Of a DNA stretch of 64,000 nucleotides, positions 9,816 to 19,809 are shown in pieces. This DNA is from Curtobacterium sp. MCLR17_032 (GTDB lineage Bacteria > Actinomycetota > Actinomycetes > Actinomycetales > Microbacteriaceae). The notes below the pieces were generated by a model. The model searched no databases. It was given only the letters and a program-made list of their open reading frames with translations, and was not told the DNA's origin. Both the position numbers and the translations under genes were made by a program. Where the stretch lies: NCBI RefSeq assembly GCF_003234795.2, contig NZ_CP126268.1, forward strand, positions 1,178,001 through 1,242,000, written 5' to 3'. Each line of letters starts with the position of its first letter. The stretch's first letter is position 1.

Positions 9816-9858
9816 CGGGCGGGAGGCGCGGCGCAGGCCCGCACCGCGCCTCCCGTCC
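9816..9858. repeat. Dispersed GGGAGGC palindrome, copy between convergent genes
   Basis: Arms GGGAGGCGCGG (9821-9831) and CCGCGCCTCCC (9844-9854) are perfectly complementary with GC-rich flanks. It lies between the convergent amidohydrolase and aminotransferase genes and is a likely bidirectional terminator. It belongs to the repeat family also seen near 17, 19.7, 25.9, 36.2, 43.1, 53.9, 56.2 and 61.6 kb. Confidence 0.75.
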
Positions 9859-15392: not shown

Positions 15393-15469
15393 CAGATGTG
15401 AAGGGCAGATGAACAACAGGTGTCTGCTCGGCTTGCCCGATGCCCCTCCGCCTGGGACACTTGCCCGCG
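15393..15469 (+). promoter_or_regulatory. pit promoter with possible Pho box
   Basis: On the minus strand 15414-15393 reads as two 11-nt direct repeats, GTTCATCTGCC and CTTCACATCTG, sharing TTCA at 11-nt spacing, similar to known actinobacterial PhoP direct-repeat units. Downstream on plus are TTGCCC (15433-15438), a 17-bp spacer, and GACACT (15456-15461), a plausible sigma-70-type promoter. Transcription would start at about the GTG 15470. PhoP control is inferred from sequence resemblance and the transporter downstream. Confidence 0.45.
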
Positions 15470-16720
15470 GTGGACATCACGCTCATAGTCGTCCTGGTCA
15501 TTGCGTTGGCCCTCTTCTTCGACTTCACAAACGGTTTTCACGACACCGCCAACGCAATGGCGACCCCGATCGCGACCGGCGCCATGAAGCCCACGGTGGC
15601 GGTCTCCGTCGCAGCGGTGCTCAACCTCGTCGGGGCGTTCCTCAGCACAGCTGTGGCGACGTCGATCTCGCACGGGCTCATCAACGAGGGACCCGGTGGC
15701 GTCGCCATCAGTCCGGAGATGATCTTCGCGGGGCTGATCGGCGCGGTGGTCTGGAACATGATCACGTGGCTGCGCGGCCTGCCGTCGTCGTCCTCGCACG
15801 CGCTCTTCGGTGGCCTCATCGGCGCCGCGATCGTCGGTGCCGGGTTCGACTCGGTGAACTACGCGGCGCTGCTGACGGTGGTGATCATCCCCGCCTTCCT
15901 GTCGCCGGTGATCGCGGCCCTGGTGTCGCTGCTCGCCACGCGGATCGCCTACCGGATCACCCGTCGCCCGGTGTTCCCGAACGAGCGCGGCGGCTTCCGC
16001 GTCGGCCAGATCTTCACCTCGTCGATGGTGTCGCTCGCGCACGGCACGAACGACGCGCAGAAGACCATGGGCGTCATCACGCTCACACTCATCGCGTCGG
16101 GTGCCCAGTCGGCGAACCAGGGCGTGCAGTTCTGGGTCGTCGTGGCGTGTGCGCTCGCGATCGCCCTCGGCACCTACACCGGTGGCTGGCGCATCATCCG
16201 CACCCTCGGCTCCGGCATCACCGAGATCCGGGCGACGCAGGGCTTCGCGGCCGAGGCCTCCACTGCCGCGACAATCCTGGCCTCGAGCCACCTCGGCTTC
16301 GCGCTCTCCACCACGCAGGTGTCCTCGGGCTCGATCATCGGCGCGGGCCTCGGTCGTCGCGGGTCGAAGATCCAGTGGTCGACAGCGGGCAAGATCGTCA
16401 TCGCCTGGTTCATCACCCTGCCGGCAGCCGCCGCGGTCGGAGCGATCGCCTCCGGCATCGCCCGCTTCGGCGTGATCGGCCTGGTCATCGACGCCGTCGC
16501 CGGTGGGATCGTGGTCCTCGGCCTGTACCTCTGGTCGCTGCGCAAGCCGCACGACTCGGCCATCGAGATCGACGTCGCCGCGAACGCCGTGCTCACCCGC
16601 AAGGAGCAGCGCGGCCTGCAGCGCAAGAAGCGTGCCGAGGCGGTCGCCGCCCGCCGCGCCGAACTGAGCCGTGAGCGGACCCTCCGCCGCATGGCCGGAC
16701 GCAAGGGAGGCCGTCGCTGA
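15470..16720 (+). CDS. pit: Low-affinity inorganic phosphate transporter, PiT family
   Basis: 416 residues and about ten membrane helices. The two PiT signatures are clear: FDFTNGFHDTANAMAT (about residues 16-31) and SLAHGTNDAQKTMGV (about 185-199), which form the inverted-repeat transport core. It imports phosphate, usually as a metal-phosphate complex with H+. The tail is Arg/Lys-rich and cytosolic. GTG 15470 is selected over ATG 15440 because a -35/-10 pair lies between them, placing the ATG inside the promoter. The stop overlaps the next ATG by 1 bp, so the small membrane gene is cotranscribed. Confidence 0.9.
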   Translation: MDITLIVVLVIALALFFDFTNGFHDTANAMATPIATGAMKPTVAVSVAAVLNLVGAFLSTAVATSISHGLINEGPGGVAISPEMIFAGLIGAVVWNMITWLRGLPSSSSHALFGGLIGAAIVGAGFDSVNYAALLTVVIIPAFLSPVIAALVSLLATRIAYRITRRPVFPNERGGFRVGQIFTSSMVSLAHGTNDAQKTMGVITLTLIASGAQSANQGVQFWVVVACALAIALGTYTGGWRIIRTLGSGITEIRATQGFAAEASTAATILASSHLGFALSTTQVSSGSIIGAGLGRRGSKIQWSTAGKIVIAWFITLPAAAAVGAIASGIARFGVIGLVIDAVAGGIVVLGLYLWSLRKPHDSAIEIDVAANAVLTRKEQRGLQRKKRAEAVAARRAELSRERTLRRMAGRKGGRR

Positions 16721-17016
16721 TGGGCATCGACTGGGGAGCGTTCCTGCTCGTGGCACTCGTCGCCGTCGTCTCGGCCTGCTTCGTCGTCTCTGTGTACTCG
16801 GTCGGGCTGCGCTTCTGGAGCGCCGCCGACACCCGTGCGGGCAAGTACACCGTGAAGGACGACGGCACGATCGGCCCGGCCACCGCCGGCTTCCCCGACC
16901 CGAACGCCGCCGCCGGGGCCGTCCGGATGCTCCGGGCGCTCGCCGTGGTCTGCTTCGTGCTCTGCGGCGCGGCCGTGCTGTACGGCATCTATCTGATCGT
17001 GCCCGCCTTCCACTGA
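16720..17016 (+). CDS. Small membrane protein linked to pit
   Basis: 98 residues. A membrane helix at about residues 7-28 (FLLVALVAVVSACFVVSVYSVG) and another near the C-terminus (about 70-93) are separated by a soluble loop containing KYTVKDDGTIGP. It has no known motif. The ATG overlaps the pit stop (TGATG), so translation is coupled; a phosphate-uptake accessory role is suggested by context only. A strong terminator follows. Confidence 0.68.
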   Translation: MGIDWGAFLLVALVAVVSACFVVSVYSVGLRFWSAADTRAGKYTVKDDGTIGPATAGFPDPNAAAGAVRMLRALAVVCFVLCGAAVLYGIYLIVPAFH

Positions 17017-17036
17017 CGCGCGGCACGTCCTCTCCG

Positions 17037-17066
17037 GCAACGGCCGGCCTCCGGGCCGGCCGTTGC
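17037..17066 (+). terminator. Intrinsic terminator of pit operon
   Basis: Perfect 13-bp stem, arms 17037-17049 and 17054-17066 with loop TCCG, 20 bp after the stop of the small membrane gene. Confidence 0.8.
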
Positions 17067-17101
17067 TGCGTTGTGGGGTGCGCCCGTCCGCCCTTGGCGG
17101 C

Positions 17102-18030
17102 GTGAGCGGGCGGAATGCCAGGGCGCGTGACGGGCGGACCGTGCGTTCTCGCCCGCTCGCCGTCTGCGGACGGGAGGCGCGGGGCTGGCTGGTCCCGCGC
17201 CTCCCGACCGCCCGTGGCAGCGTGAGCGGGCGAAACACCAGGGTGCGTGGCGGACGGACCGCGCGTTCTCGCCCGCTCGCCGTCCCCTGGGGCGAACGGG
17301 CGGAGTGCCAGGGCGCGTCAGCGGGTCACGGCGCGTTTGCGCCCGCTCGCCGTCGGATCGGCGTGCTTGGCCGACGGGATGCGCTTGGTTGGCTGGTGCC
17401 GCGCCTCCCGTCCGCCTCGTGCGTGAGCGGGCGGAATGCCAGGGGGAGTCGCGGACGACCCGCGCGTTCTCGTCCGCTCGCGGTCGTCCCTGAGGCGAGC
17501 GGGCGGAATGCCGGGGCGCGTCAGCCGCGCACGGCGCATCTGCGCCCGATCGACGTCGGACCAGCCTTCGGCCGGCGGCAGGGGAGGCGCGGGGCGGGCT
17601 GGCCCCGTGTCTCCCGTCCGCCCGTGGGCATGAGCGGGCGGAACGTCAGAGTGCGCGGCCGTCGCACCACCCGTTCTCGCCCGCTGGCGGATGCCCCTGA
17701 GGCGAGCGGGCGGAATCCCTGGGCCCGTCCGCCGCGCACGGCGCGTCCGCGCCCGCTCGCCGGCGGGGAAGCCGGCCGTTGGCGGACTGGAGGCACGAGG
17801 CGGGCACGGCCGCGCCTCTTGTCCGCCCTGTGGCGTGAGCGGGCGGAACGCCAGGCCGGGTGGCGCGCGCACCCAGCGGTCCCGCCCGCTCGCCGTCAGG
17901 GAAGCCGGCGGCTGGCGGACGGGAGGCCCGTGGCCGGCCGGGTGCCGTGCCTCCCGTGCCGCAGGTGGTGAGTGGGCGGAATCCCGTGGTGCAGGACGAG
18001 GTGCCCCTGGTGTTCCGCCCGCTCGCGCTC
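17102..18030. repeat. BIME-like array of nine ~63-bp imperfect palindromes
   Basis: Units begin at 17102, 17222, 17294, 17423, 17496, 17630, 17703, 17835 and 17968. Each starts GTGAGCGGGCGGAAT and ends about 63 bp later with GCGTTCTCGCCCGCTCGCC; the two ends are inverted copies, so each unit can fold into a stem of about 15 bp. Spacing alternates between about 72 and 130 bp, giving a composite period near 200-207 bp. The longer gaps contain a second palindrome (GGGAGGC type) near 17171-17206, 17369-17414, 17581-17619, 17785-17826 and 17919-17961. Units differ by point changes. This resembles REP/BIME elements; the function is unknown. Confidence 0.85.
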
Positions 18031-18103
18031 CGCCTCGCCCACCCGGCGGCGCGCTCTGCCCCGCCCCGCCGACACGCCCTGCCCCACCCGCCGCACCCGC
18101 CCG

Positions 18104-18165
18104 CCCGCCGCACCCGCACCCACCCCCACCCGCCACCCGCACCCGCACCTCCCGCACCGGCCGGA
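18104..18165 (-). repeat. C-rich (ACCCGC)n tract with G-quadruplex potential on minus strand
   Basis: The plus strand is nearly free of T and is built of ACCCGC and ACCCCC runs, so the minus strand has more than four closely spaced GGG runs. It lies 12 bp or more upstream of the putative aspA -10. Quadruplex formation is possible but not shown. Confidence 0.5.
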
Positions 18166-18215
18166 CGGTCGCGGACTACCCTCGACACGTGACCCGCGAC
18201 GGAGAGGAACACCAC

Positions 18216-19700
18216 GTGACGAGCGCTGCCACCCGCACCGAGACCGATTCCCTGGGCTCGAGGGAGGTGCCCGTCGATTCGTACTGGGGCATCAACACCC
18301 TCCGGGCGATGGAGAACTTCCCGATCGCCTCCGTGCCGATCGCGGTGTACCCGGACCTCGTCGCCGCTCTGGTGACCGTGAAGCAGGCGGCAGCCCGGGC
18401 GAACCGGGCGATCGGGGTCCTCGACGACGAGCGCGCCGACGCCATCGACCGTGCCGCGCAGGAGGTGCGTGACGGTGCCCTCCGCGACCAGTTCGTCGTC
18501 GACGTGGTCCAGGGCGGTGCCGGCACGAGCACGAACATGAACACGAACGAGGTCCTGGCGAACCGGGCCCTCGAGCTCCTCGGCCGCGAGCGGGGCGACT
18601 ACGCGTACCTGCACCCCATCGACCACGTGAACCGCAGCCAGTCGACGAACGACACGTACCCGACGAGCATCAAGATCGCGATGATCTACGGGGTGCGCCG
18701 CCTGGCCGACCAGCTGGAGCAGCTGTCGGACGCGTTCGCCGAGCGGGGCCGCGCCTTCGCGGACGTCCTCAAGGTGGGTCGGACGCAGCTGCAGGACGCC
18801 GTGCCGATGACGCTCGGCCAGGAGTTCACGGGCTTCGCGCACACCATCCAGGAGGACGTCGTCCAGCTCCGCCGCGTGGTGCCGCTGCTCGGTGAGATGA
18901 ACCTCGGCGCGACCGCGATCGGCACCGGCATCACCGCGGATCCGCTCTACCGCGACGAGGTCCGCAGACAACTCGCCGAGGCGTCGGGCGTCGACGTCGT
19001 CACCGCGCCGGACCTCATCGAGGCGACGAGTGACGCCGGCTCGTTCATGACGCTGTCCGGCACGGTGAAGCGCAGTGCGATGAAGCTGTCGAAGATCTGC
19101 AACGACCTGCGGCTGCTGGCGTCGGGGCCGCAGGCGGGCCTCGGTGAGATCACGCTGCCGCCGCGGCAGGCCGGGTCCTCGATCATGCCGGGCAAGGTGA
19201 ACCCGGTGATCCCGGAGGTGGTGAACCAGATCGCCTTCGCCGTCGCCGGGGCGGACACCACGGTGACGATGGCGGCCGAGGGCGGGCAGCTGCAGCTCAA
19301 CGCCTTCGAGCCGATCATCGCGCACTCGATCCTGCAGTCGCTGCAGTGGATGGCCCGCGGCTGCGCGACCCTCCGCGAGCACTGCGTCATCGGCATCGAG
19401 GCGAACGAGGCCAAGCTCGCCGCACAGGTCGACACGAACGTCGGTGTCGTCACCGCACTGACGCCGTACATCGGCTACGCGGCGGCGGCGTCGATCGCGC
19501 ACACGGCGTTGACGACGTCGACGCCGATCTCCACGCTGGTGATCGCGGCGGGCCTGATGGACGAGCACCAGGTGCACCGCGTCCTCAGCCCGGCGCGCCT
19601 GTCCGGCATCGAGATGGCCACGGGGGCGATCCCGGTGATCACCGAGGCGATGCTCCAGCAGCACGCCCGCGACGCGGCCCCGCGTCCGCCGCTGGCCTGA
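18216..19700 (+). CDS. aspA: Aspartate ammonia-lyase
   Basis: 494 residues of the aspartase/fumarase superfamily. It has the signature GSSIMPGKVNPVIPE near residue 325 with the catalytic Ser, NTNEVLANRA near 109 and the N-terminal TETDSLGSREVP typical of aspartases rather than FumC. It deaminates L-aspartate to fumarate and ammonia in a cytosolic tetramer. GTG 18216 is chosen because GGAGAGG lies 8 nt upstream and fits family starts. GTG 18189, 6 nt after TACCCT (18177-18182), would be a leaderless alternative adding nine residues. A fumarase role is less likely but possible. Confidence 0.85.
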   Translation: MTSAATRTETDSLGSREVPVDSYWGINTLRAMENFPIASVPIAVYPDLVAALVTVKQAAARANRAIGVLDDERADAIDRAAQEVRDGALRDQFVVDVVQGGAGTSTNMNTNEVLANRALELLGRERGDYAYLHPIDHVNRSQSTNDTYPTSIKIAMIYGVRRLADQLEQLSDAFAERGRAFADVLKVGRTQLQDAVPMTLGQEFTGFAHTIQEDVVQLRRVVPLLGEMNLGATAIGTGITADPLYRDEVRRQLAEASGVDVVTAPDLIEATSDAGSFMTLSGTVKRSAMKLSKICNDLRLLASGPQAGLGEITLPPRQAGSSIMPGKVNPVIPEVVNQIAFAVAGADTTVTMAAEGGQLQLNAFEPIIAHSILQSLQWMARGCATLREHCVIGIEANEAKLAAQVDTNVGVVTALTPYIGYAAAASIAHTALTTSTPISTLVIAAGLMDEHQVHRVLSPARLSGIEMATGAIPVITEAMLQQHARDAAPRPPLA

Positions 19701-19736
19701 CCCGACCCGCAGGCGAACCAGCTGGACCCCCTGACG

Positions 19737-19776
19737 GACGGGAGGCCCGTGGCGGCCCCGCCGCGCGCCTCCCGTC
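19737..19776. repeat. Dispersed GGGAGGC palindrome, copy after aspA
   Basis: Arms GACGGGAGGC (19737-19746) and GCCTCCCGTC (19767-19776) flank a GC-rich loop between the convergent aspA and BrkB-like genes. Probable bidirectional terminator. Confidence 0.72.
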
Positions 19777-19809
19777 CGTCCGCGGCTCACGCAACGAGCA
19801 CAGTGCCGC

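Follow-up and report, generated by a model that had tools for sequence, protein, structure and literature searches.

A REPIN-like 55-bp twin-arm repeat in Curtobacterium, a genus without RAYT matches

An intergenic array in a 64,000-nucleotide stretch of a Curtobacterium genome (the window) combines nine copies of a 55-bp palindromic unit, designated A, with five interspersed copies of B, a hairpin of about 42 bp that is unrelated to A in sequence. Our preferred interpretation, to which we give slightly less than an even chance, is that A is a REPIN-like, RAYT-less repeat of Curtobacterium whose two arms are read by a putative protein and whose turnover would now take place chiefly within tandem arrays. 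REPINs are considered RAYT-dependent. In the proposed mechanism, a putative trans-acting protein distinct from RAYT would recognise the two arms as double-stranded half-sites separated by about four helix turns. As long as this protein is present, units would persist and would have spread, or been retained, chiefly within a single chromosomal domain, and arrays would grow by tandem duplication; loss of the protein would lead to loss of the arrays. It seems slightly more likely that the protein spreads the units than that it uses them. If the interpretation is true, REPIN anatomy that persists without RAYT across a genus, with concertedly changing words and with lineages from which the word has gone, would suggest either another kind of repeat-spreading enzyme or a DNA-binding protein that is specific to the lineage and has changing recognition words.

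Architecture of the array and span of the A unit

Repeat-family detection located nine A copies at 17104–18024, in agreement with the original prediction; the unit length of 63 bp proposed there was not borne out. Each copy is exactly 55 bp and consists of 12-bp inverted arms and a variable 31-bp interior. The units, all assigned to the plus strand, occupy 17104–17158, 17224–17278, 17294–17348, 17425–17479, 17497–17551, 17632–17686, 17704–17758, 17837–17891, and 17970–18024, with start-to-start spacing of 120, 70, 131, 72, 135, 72, 133, and 133 bp. A second palindrome type had been predicted in the longer gaps, and B indeed lies in each of five such gaps, at 17168–17209 (42 bp), 17372–17413 (42 bp, left arm degenerate), 17578–17619 (42 bp), 17784–17824 (41 bp), and 17917–17959 (43 bp). 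The resulting order is A B A A B A A B A A B A B A. Because A-B-A modules repeat, the array has a period of about 205 bp; a 158-nt stretch recurs at 207 bp, so the composite period of about 200 bp originally described holds. The word GAGCGGGCGGAATGCC, with up to three mismatches, has 10 matches in the window versus a shuffle mean of 2.39, and none of 100 shuffles reached 10. In a relative, G012, the matching array ends with a unit that differs from the ninth A unit at 2 of 55 positions.

The gap that contains the array looks gene-free, as had been predicted. To its left, a plus-strand ORF of 98 amino acids without a Pfam match (16720–17016) adjoins a PF01384 phosphate transporter (15440–16720). 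To its right lies a plus-strand gene for a lyase of the fumarase/aspartase superfamily (18216–19700; PF00206 and PF10415), the start codon of which was picked by eye. The units themselves do not appear to be coding: a 302-amino acid ORF that runs across the array has no Pfam match, and 55 bp is not a multiple of three. An Rfam search over 16000–19000 returned nothing at the gathering score and three weak matches (E 0.3–0.7).

The span of the unit is nearly invariant. In loci that were fetched for holding 55-bp units, outer 9-bp arms (up to one mismatch each) form 236 pairs at 55 bp, 19 at 54 bp, and 18 at 56 bp; among the other spans between 25 and 90 bp, 87 bp occurs 12 times and the remainder 0–5 times each. 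Units of 54 or 56 bp are found in some species. The window's genome (G000) is a single 3.71-Mb contig in which the dnaA match begins at base 430 and the window spans 1,178,001–1,242,000. When a variable gap was permitted in G000 (spans of 42–72 bp), 10 of 11 matches were 55 bp. Across 640 kb of G000, 19 palindromes of the form GAG...CTC have a length of 55 bp, each other length from 48 to 65 bp is represented 0–1 times, and the sole class larger than that of 55 bp is 30 bp (26). Four of these 19 occur singly and have other words. A generic palindrome scan that dropped the GAG...CTC condition and covered 640 kb, the rule of which counts A units with paired GC flanks as 57–59 bp, gave no peak at 55 bp (4) and revealed other palindrome families at 52–60 bp. 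The fixed span therefore belongs to these families and not to palindromes in general. Single 55-bp palindromes of other words (GAGGTCGCAC..., GAGNGGTCACGAA...) were observed outside arrays at G000:C1 650636, 833095, 876747, and 1116944.

Distribution, shared gaps, and turnover

The repeat extends well beyond the window, to the rest of the genome and across the genus. The two-arm 55-bp pattern identifies 32 units in G000, where the reversed pattern has no match. At least one unit is present in 55 of 66 Curtobacterium genomes and at least three in 48 of 66, with 0 to 81 matches per genome. These counts cover one word with up to three mismatches at a span of 55 bp, so they miss 54- and 56-bp units and other words; genomes with one or two matches (7/66) are near the control level, the reversed pattern giving 0–2 matches and exceeding zero in 13 of 66. 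The exact strongest form, sought in one genome per species across 84,980 species, matched 23 stretches, 22 from Curtobacterium and one from Arthrobacter subterraneus. Among 398 genomes of the family, the word with up to two mismatches is present in 16, namely nine of the 10 Curtobacterium drawn and seven others with one copy each; these seven are near chance by that pattern alone, because five genomes match the reversed pattern. A looser pattern was applied to 18 chosen genomes, with 0–1 control matches. It has 21 matches in G365 (19 of which share one word of the GAGGGGTCGCAAATGAC type), 11 in G158, 10 in G454, four each in G219, G245, and G268, three in G387, two in the Arthrobacter genome, one in G301 (with one control match), and none in nine of the 18. 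Palindromes of 55 bp that use other words exist in some further members of the Microbacteriaceae. It is conceivable, if rather doubtful, that a recognition system exists across Micrococcales in which a putative fast-evolving protein reads 55-bp twin-arm sites with a word for each lineage, the sites living and dying with the protein and serving as RAYT-less mobile cargo or as domain markers.

In G000, all 32 units are confined to 624,954–1,196,024, which corresponds to 0.57 of 3.71 Mb (15% of the chromosome) to one side of dnaA. A further A unit, 56 bp long and missed by the 55-bp pattern, occupies a tenth gap in the same domain at about 1,052,137. Flanking sequence placed 78 of 90 unit clusters from other genomes in the domain gaps of G000 (0.62–1.2 Mb); the mapping reference was 0.60–1.24 Mb of G000, the regions were drawn from unit lists rather than as a random sample, and some genomes stand under two names among the 90 rows (L059/L121, L067/L119, L071/L139). 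Five of the 12 unplaced clusters come from G019, for which seven loci were fetched. C. pusillum AA3 has 16 of its 19 units within 3.46–3.65 Mb. Different species have units in the same gaps, most clearly upstream of orn, where units are present in all 18 unit-bearing genomes with an orn match. For this comparison 19 genomes were tried, one of which (G003) had no orn match; units were known beforehand at this gap in two (G018 and G021) and had not previously been seen there in 16.

This confinement raises the question of whether A units are sites that mark one domain and are bound by a host protein with a chromosome-organising or regulatory role, which we regard as unlikely, though it fares best among the alternatives. 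The location of every G000 unit in 15% of the chromosome, the recurrence of unit positions across species, the strict span, and the half-site behaviour described below all speak for it, as does the fact that both arms follow the species word (in a mixed-species set, arm position 16 is paired in 84% of units versus 43% when permuted). Against it, 11 of 66 genomes lack the word, with the neighbouring genes in place in the four of these compared; matches per genome vary from 0 to 81; and the listed units of G019 are spread over seven contigs, with two of seven fetched loci mapping to the domain. The domain also has no dif-like site (best match 18/26 over 0.60–1.24 Mb to the consensus used) and no switch in gene-strand bias. 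A replication terminus in this region was rejected on the dif-like search and on a GC skew within about 0.04 of zero. matS and parS are palindromic sites that mark one chromosome domain. The A units of G000 are likewise palindromic and confined to one region; unlike matS and parS, A is much longer, occurs in arrays, and is missing from some species. A units may also be a nucleoid element or a recombination site, as originally suggested. Within the domain, G000:C1 720–780 kb has a GC content of 0.64–0.66 versus about 0.71 and is perhaps an island.

Returning to the preferred interpretation, comparison of array length among strains revealed that copy number differs between close relatives. The orn gap contains one unit in G062 versus four in G011. 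The 55-bp units of G000 (32) and G012 (33) occupy the same nine gaps, with different copy numbers in several; neither genome of this pair has a private gap of 55-bp units, and no movement was seen between them. The 11 word-free genomes have no units at the orn gap, partly by construction. This gap measures 38–39 bp in word-free G045 and G036 versus 967 bp in G000, and the gap of the window's array is about 101–103 bp in G001 and G041 versus 1200 bp in G000. Eight gaps were tried in word-free relatives, and those that could be aligned, six in G041, five in G060, three in G001, and one in G044, contain no A unit. Most are short, the exceptions being 332 bp in G060 at the 1039-kb gap and 679 bp in G001 at the 1037-kb gap. 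Within the latter, three 55-bp palindromes that use another word, one of which ends imperfectly, form an array (L254 15677–16262); as the same gap holds A units in G000, a word switch is possible. In an orn tree of 38 rows, the absence of units needs five changes, two of which are forced by well-supported branches, so units have probably been lost or gained more than once. Of the hallmarks of MITEs, terminal inverted repeats and target-site duplications, A units show inverted ends, and the insertion points are too diverged for duplications to be called by eye. The M60-peptidase gene at G000:C1 946729–948546, a neighbour of the 948-kb A array, is unmatched in the compared stretches of G041 and G001. 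Among the rows listed, this ORF is the G000 gene left unmatched where G041 stretches overlap.

Arm words, pairing, and gene orientation

The arm consensus is (G)C-GAGCGGGCGRAA, plus a conserved position 16; arms begin GAGCGGGCG, are GC-flanked, and carry no GTAG or CGTC tag at their end. At arm positions 10–20, units from different gaps of one genome have a likeness of 0.597, versus 0.556 for units from different genomes at one gap (0.510 without the sister group). The within-genome excess was reached by 0 of 1000 shuffles (182 units, 17 genomes). A weaker likeness by gap exists as well (excess 0.024, 16/1000 shuffles). Arm words are thus genome-specific and evolve in concert. Gene conversion could be the source of this concerted evolution, and a trans-acting agent or conversion would keep the units of a genome alike.

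Compensatory pairing of A arms was assessed against arm-permuted units in three clades, none of which showed an excess. At positions 13–20, pairing is 0.604 versus 0.594 permuted (48 units), 0.422 versus 0.416 (82 units), and, in the window's clade, 0.379 versus 0.453 (70 units). B arms, in contrast, pair at 0.833 versus 0.773 permuted (sd 0.006), a value that exceeds 1000 of 1000 permutations and indicates strong compensatory change. Because A differs from B in this way, two protein-read half-sites fit better than a selected hairpin. A would thus fit two half-sites at a fixed distance, with some four helical turns separating the arm centres. Throughout G000, B forms near-perfect palindromes with a length of 42 bp in 60 of 93 instances, nested ones included; further examples in the window lie at 9817–9858 and 19736–19777. 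B occurs genome-wide and without A, and inspection by eye also recognised it in two gaps of relatives that lack A. It behaves as a hairpin and a dispersed family, perhaps terminator-like.

For A, the idea of a terminator, also raised by the original prediction, was not supported. That A units are bidirectional transcription terminators or intergenic RNA hairpins strikes us as improbable. Their palindromic form suits such a role, and other palindrome families lie in converging gaps. Some signs of pairing exist: positions 13–22 of the mixed-species set pair at 0.452 versus 0.362 permuted (z 3.8), arm pairing in G008 has z 2.3 on 4 units, the unit interior in G002 and G008 folds better than shuffles, and positions 10–16 covary slightly in G365 (p 0.0055), the core there being asymmetric. 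We read the mixed-species excess as likely to reflect species-specific words common to both arms; real pairing would give the same result. On the other side stand the lack of within-clade compensation and the 31-nt interior. Folding of single 24-nt arms gives a mean z of -0.36 in G000, with a range from 0.04 (G002) to -2.17 (G019). Arm mismatches are equally divided between G.T (114) and A.C (118) and are not polarised by cluster. The absence of polarised wobble led us to reject a one-strand RNA hairpin and counts against terminators, although a two-way terminator would also give equality.

Twenty gap places in the domain comprise 5 convergent, 11 tandem, and 4 divergent ones, as judged with a crude ORF caller and with the 948-kb gap classed on a miscalled neighbour; the G000 background is 79 convergent gaps of 323, and no bias toward convergent genes is apparent in the domain. 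Units also lie upstream of orn and, by eye, between pncB- and murI-like genes. Favouring terminators, crude gene calls put converging genes around 9 of the 11 Curtobacterium loci that were not mapped to the domain and had calls for both neighbours, and around 11 of the 17 loci in G365; in neither set do any lie between diverging genes. The figure of 9/11 derives from 22 rows, with a duplicate pair (L084, L094), the in-domain L124, L125, L139, and L143, three G454 rows, and L063 and L129 (no left neighbour) set aside; L089 of these is unmapped. A separate 60-bp palindrome family (GCACAAC...) was seen in four copies, at 1663–1722 of the window and at G000:C1 878650, 878810, and 889869, all between converging genes by crude gene calls.

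The least probable alternative is that A is a decayed REP or BIME, that is, a set of old, immobile repeats shaped by tandem duplication and gene conversion with no recognition protein: copy-number change within arrays, the gaps shared by G000 and G012, and (as for terminators) the mixed-species pairing and the generic palindrome scan favour it, and against it the span is held at 54–56 bp despite widely diverged interiors, and other genera, as well as Curtobacterium itself, have 55-bp palindromes with different words.

Comparison with known repeats and the search for a partner protein

The proposal that some other protein reads both arms stems from the likeness of units within a genome together with the absence of RAYT. 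None of the 66 Curtobacterium genomes matches the RAYT/Y1 transposase domain (PF01797), whereas 5 of 14 control genomes do, E. coli included; the linked REP-associated transposase that the original prediction proposed to look for is thus missing from these genomes. Nor was a transposase found beside units among the best 25 of 142 families for 66 flanking ORFs. No candidate recognition protein was found, which is the weakest point of the explanation; the next is that no fresh insertion was seen. The partner gene could be sought by comparison of gene content, because close relatives with and without arrays exist. One candidate, the DUF559 nuclease, was rejected: it has matches in 8 of 16 genomes and does not track the units, with none in unit-bearing G000, G005, G012, and G019, eight each in G193 and G349 (both without unit matches), and one to three each in G008, G365, G454, G158, and G455.

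As described in excerpts of PMC3116915, REPINs consist of two inverted conserved arms around a less conserved spacer of set length; they are intergenic and mostly single, with some tandem clusters, and form several families per genome that are linked to RAYT. Like REPINs and the REP doublets of Pseudomonas and E. coli, A has two inverted arms at a defined span of 55 bp (54–56). Unlike REPINs, A belongs to a genus without RAYT (66/66), its arms start with GAG rather than GTAG, its single arms show no clear folding in G000, and it resides mainly in one chromosomal domain. The suggested REP family therefore stands as an intergenic repeat family across genome and genus, and membership in REP proper does not, given RAYT in 0/66 genomes and the missing GTAG and CGTC tags. 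CGTC-tagged REPs provide a precedent: as presented in sections of PMC3733652, they are palindromic dimers with 8–9-bp stems for which no dedicated transposase was found. That paper reports them in Proteobacteria and a further four phyla, and its main text never mentions Actinobacteria. A resembles them as a palindromic dimer without a dedicated transposase and differs from them in its tag. The portion of the literature covered contained no publication on this repeat and none that combines REPIN, RAYT, and Actinobacteria.

The term BIME-like composite remains apt as a description: two interspersed palindrome types form an intergenic mosaic, with copies elsewhere in the genome and genus. In contrast to BIMEs, A and B are unrelated in sequence, and B is dispersed through the genome, also in places that lack A. 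Plasmids contain no match to A units. Among viral contigs one stretch matches, and it is host flank beside orn. The phage contig L242 runs at its end into host DNA that carries an orn match and two A units, and an integrase-like ORF, recognised by eye, adjoins this DNA.
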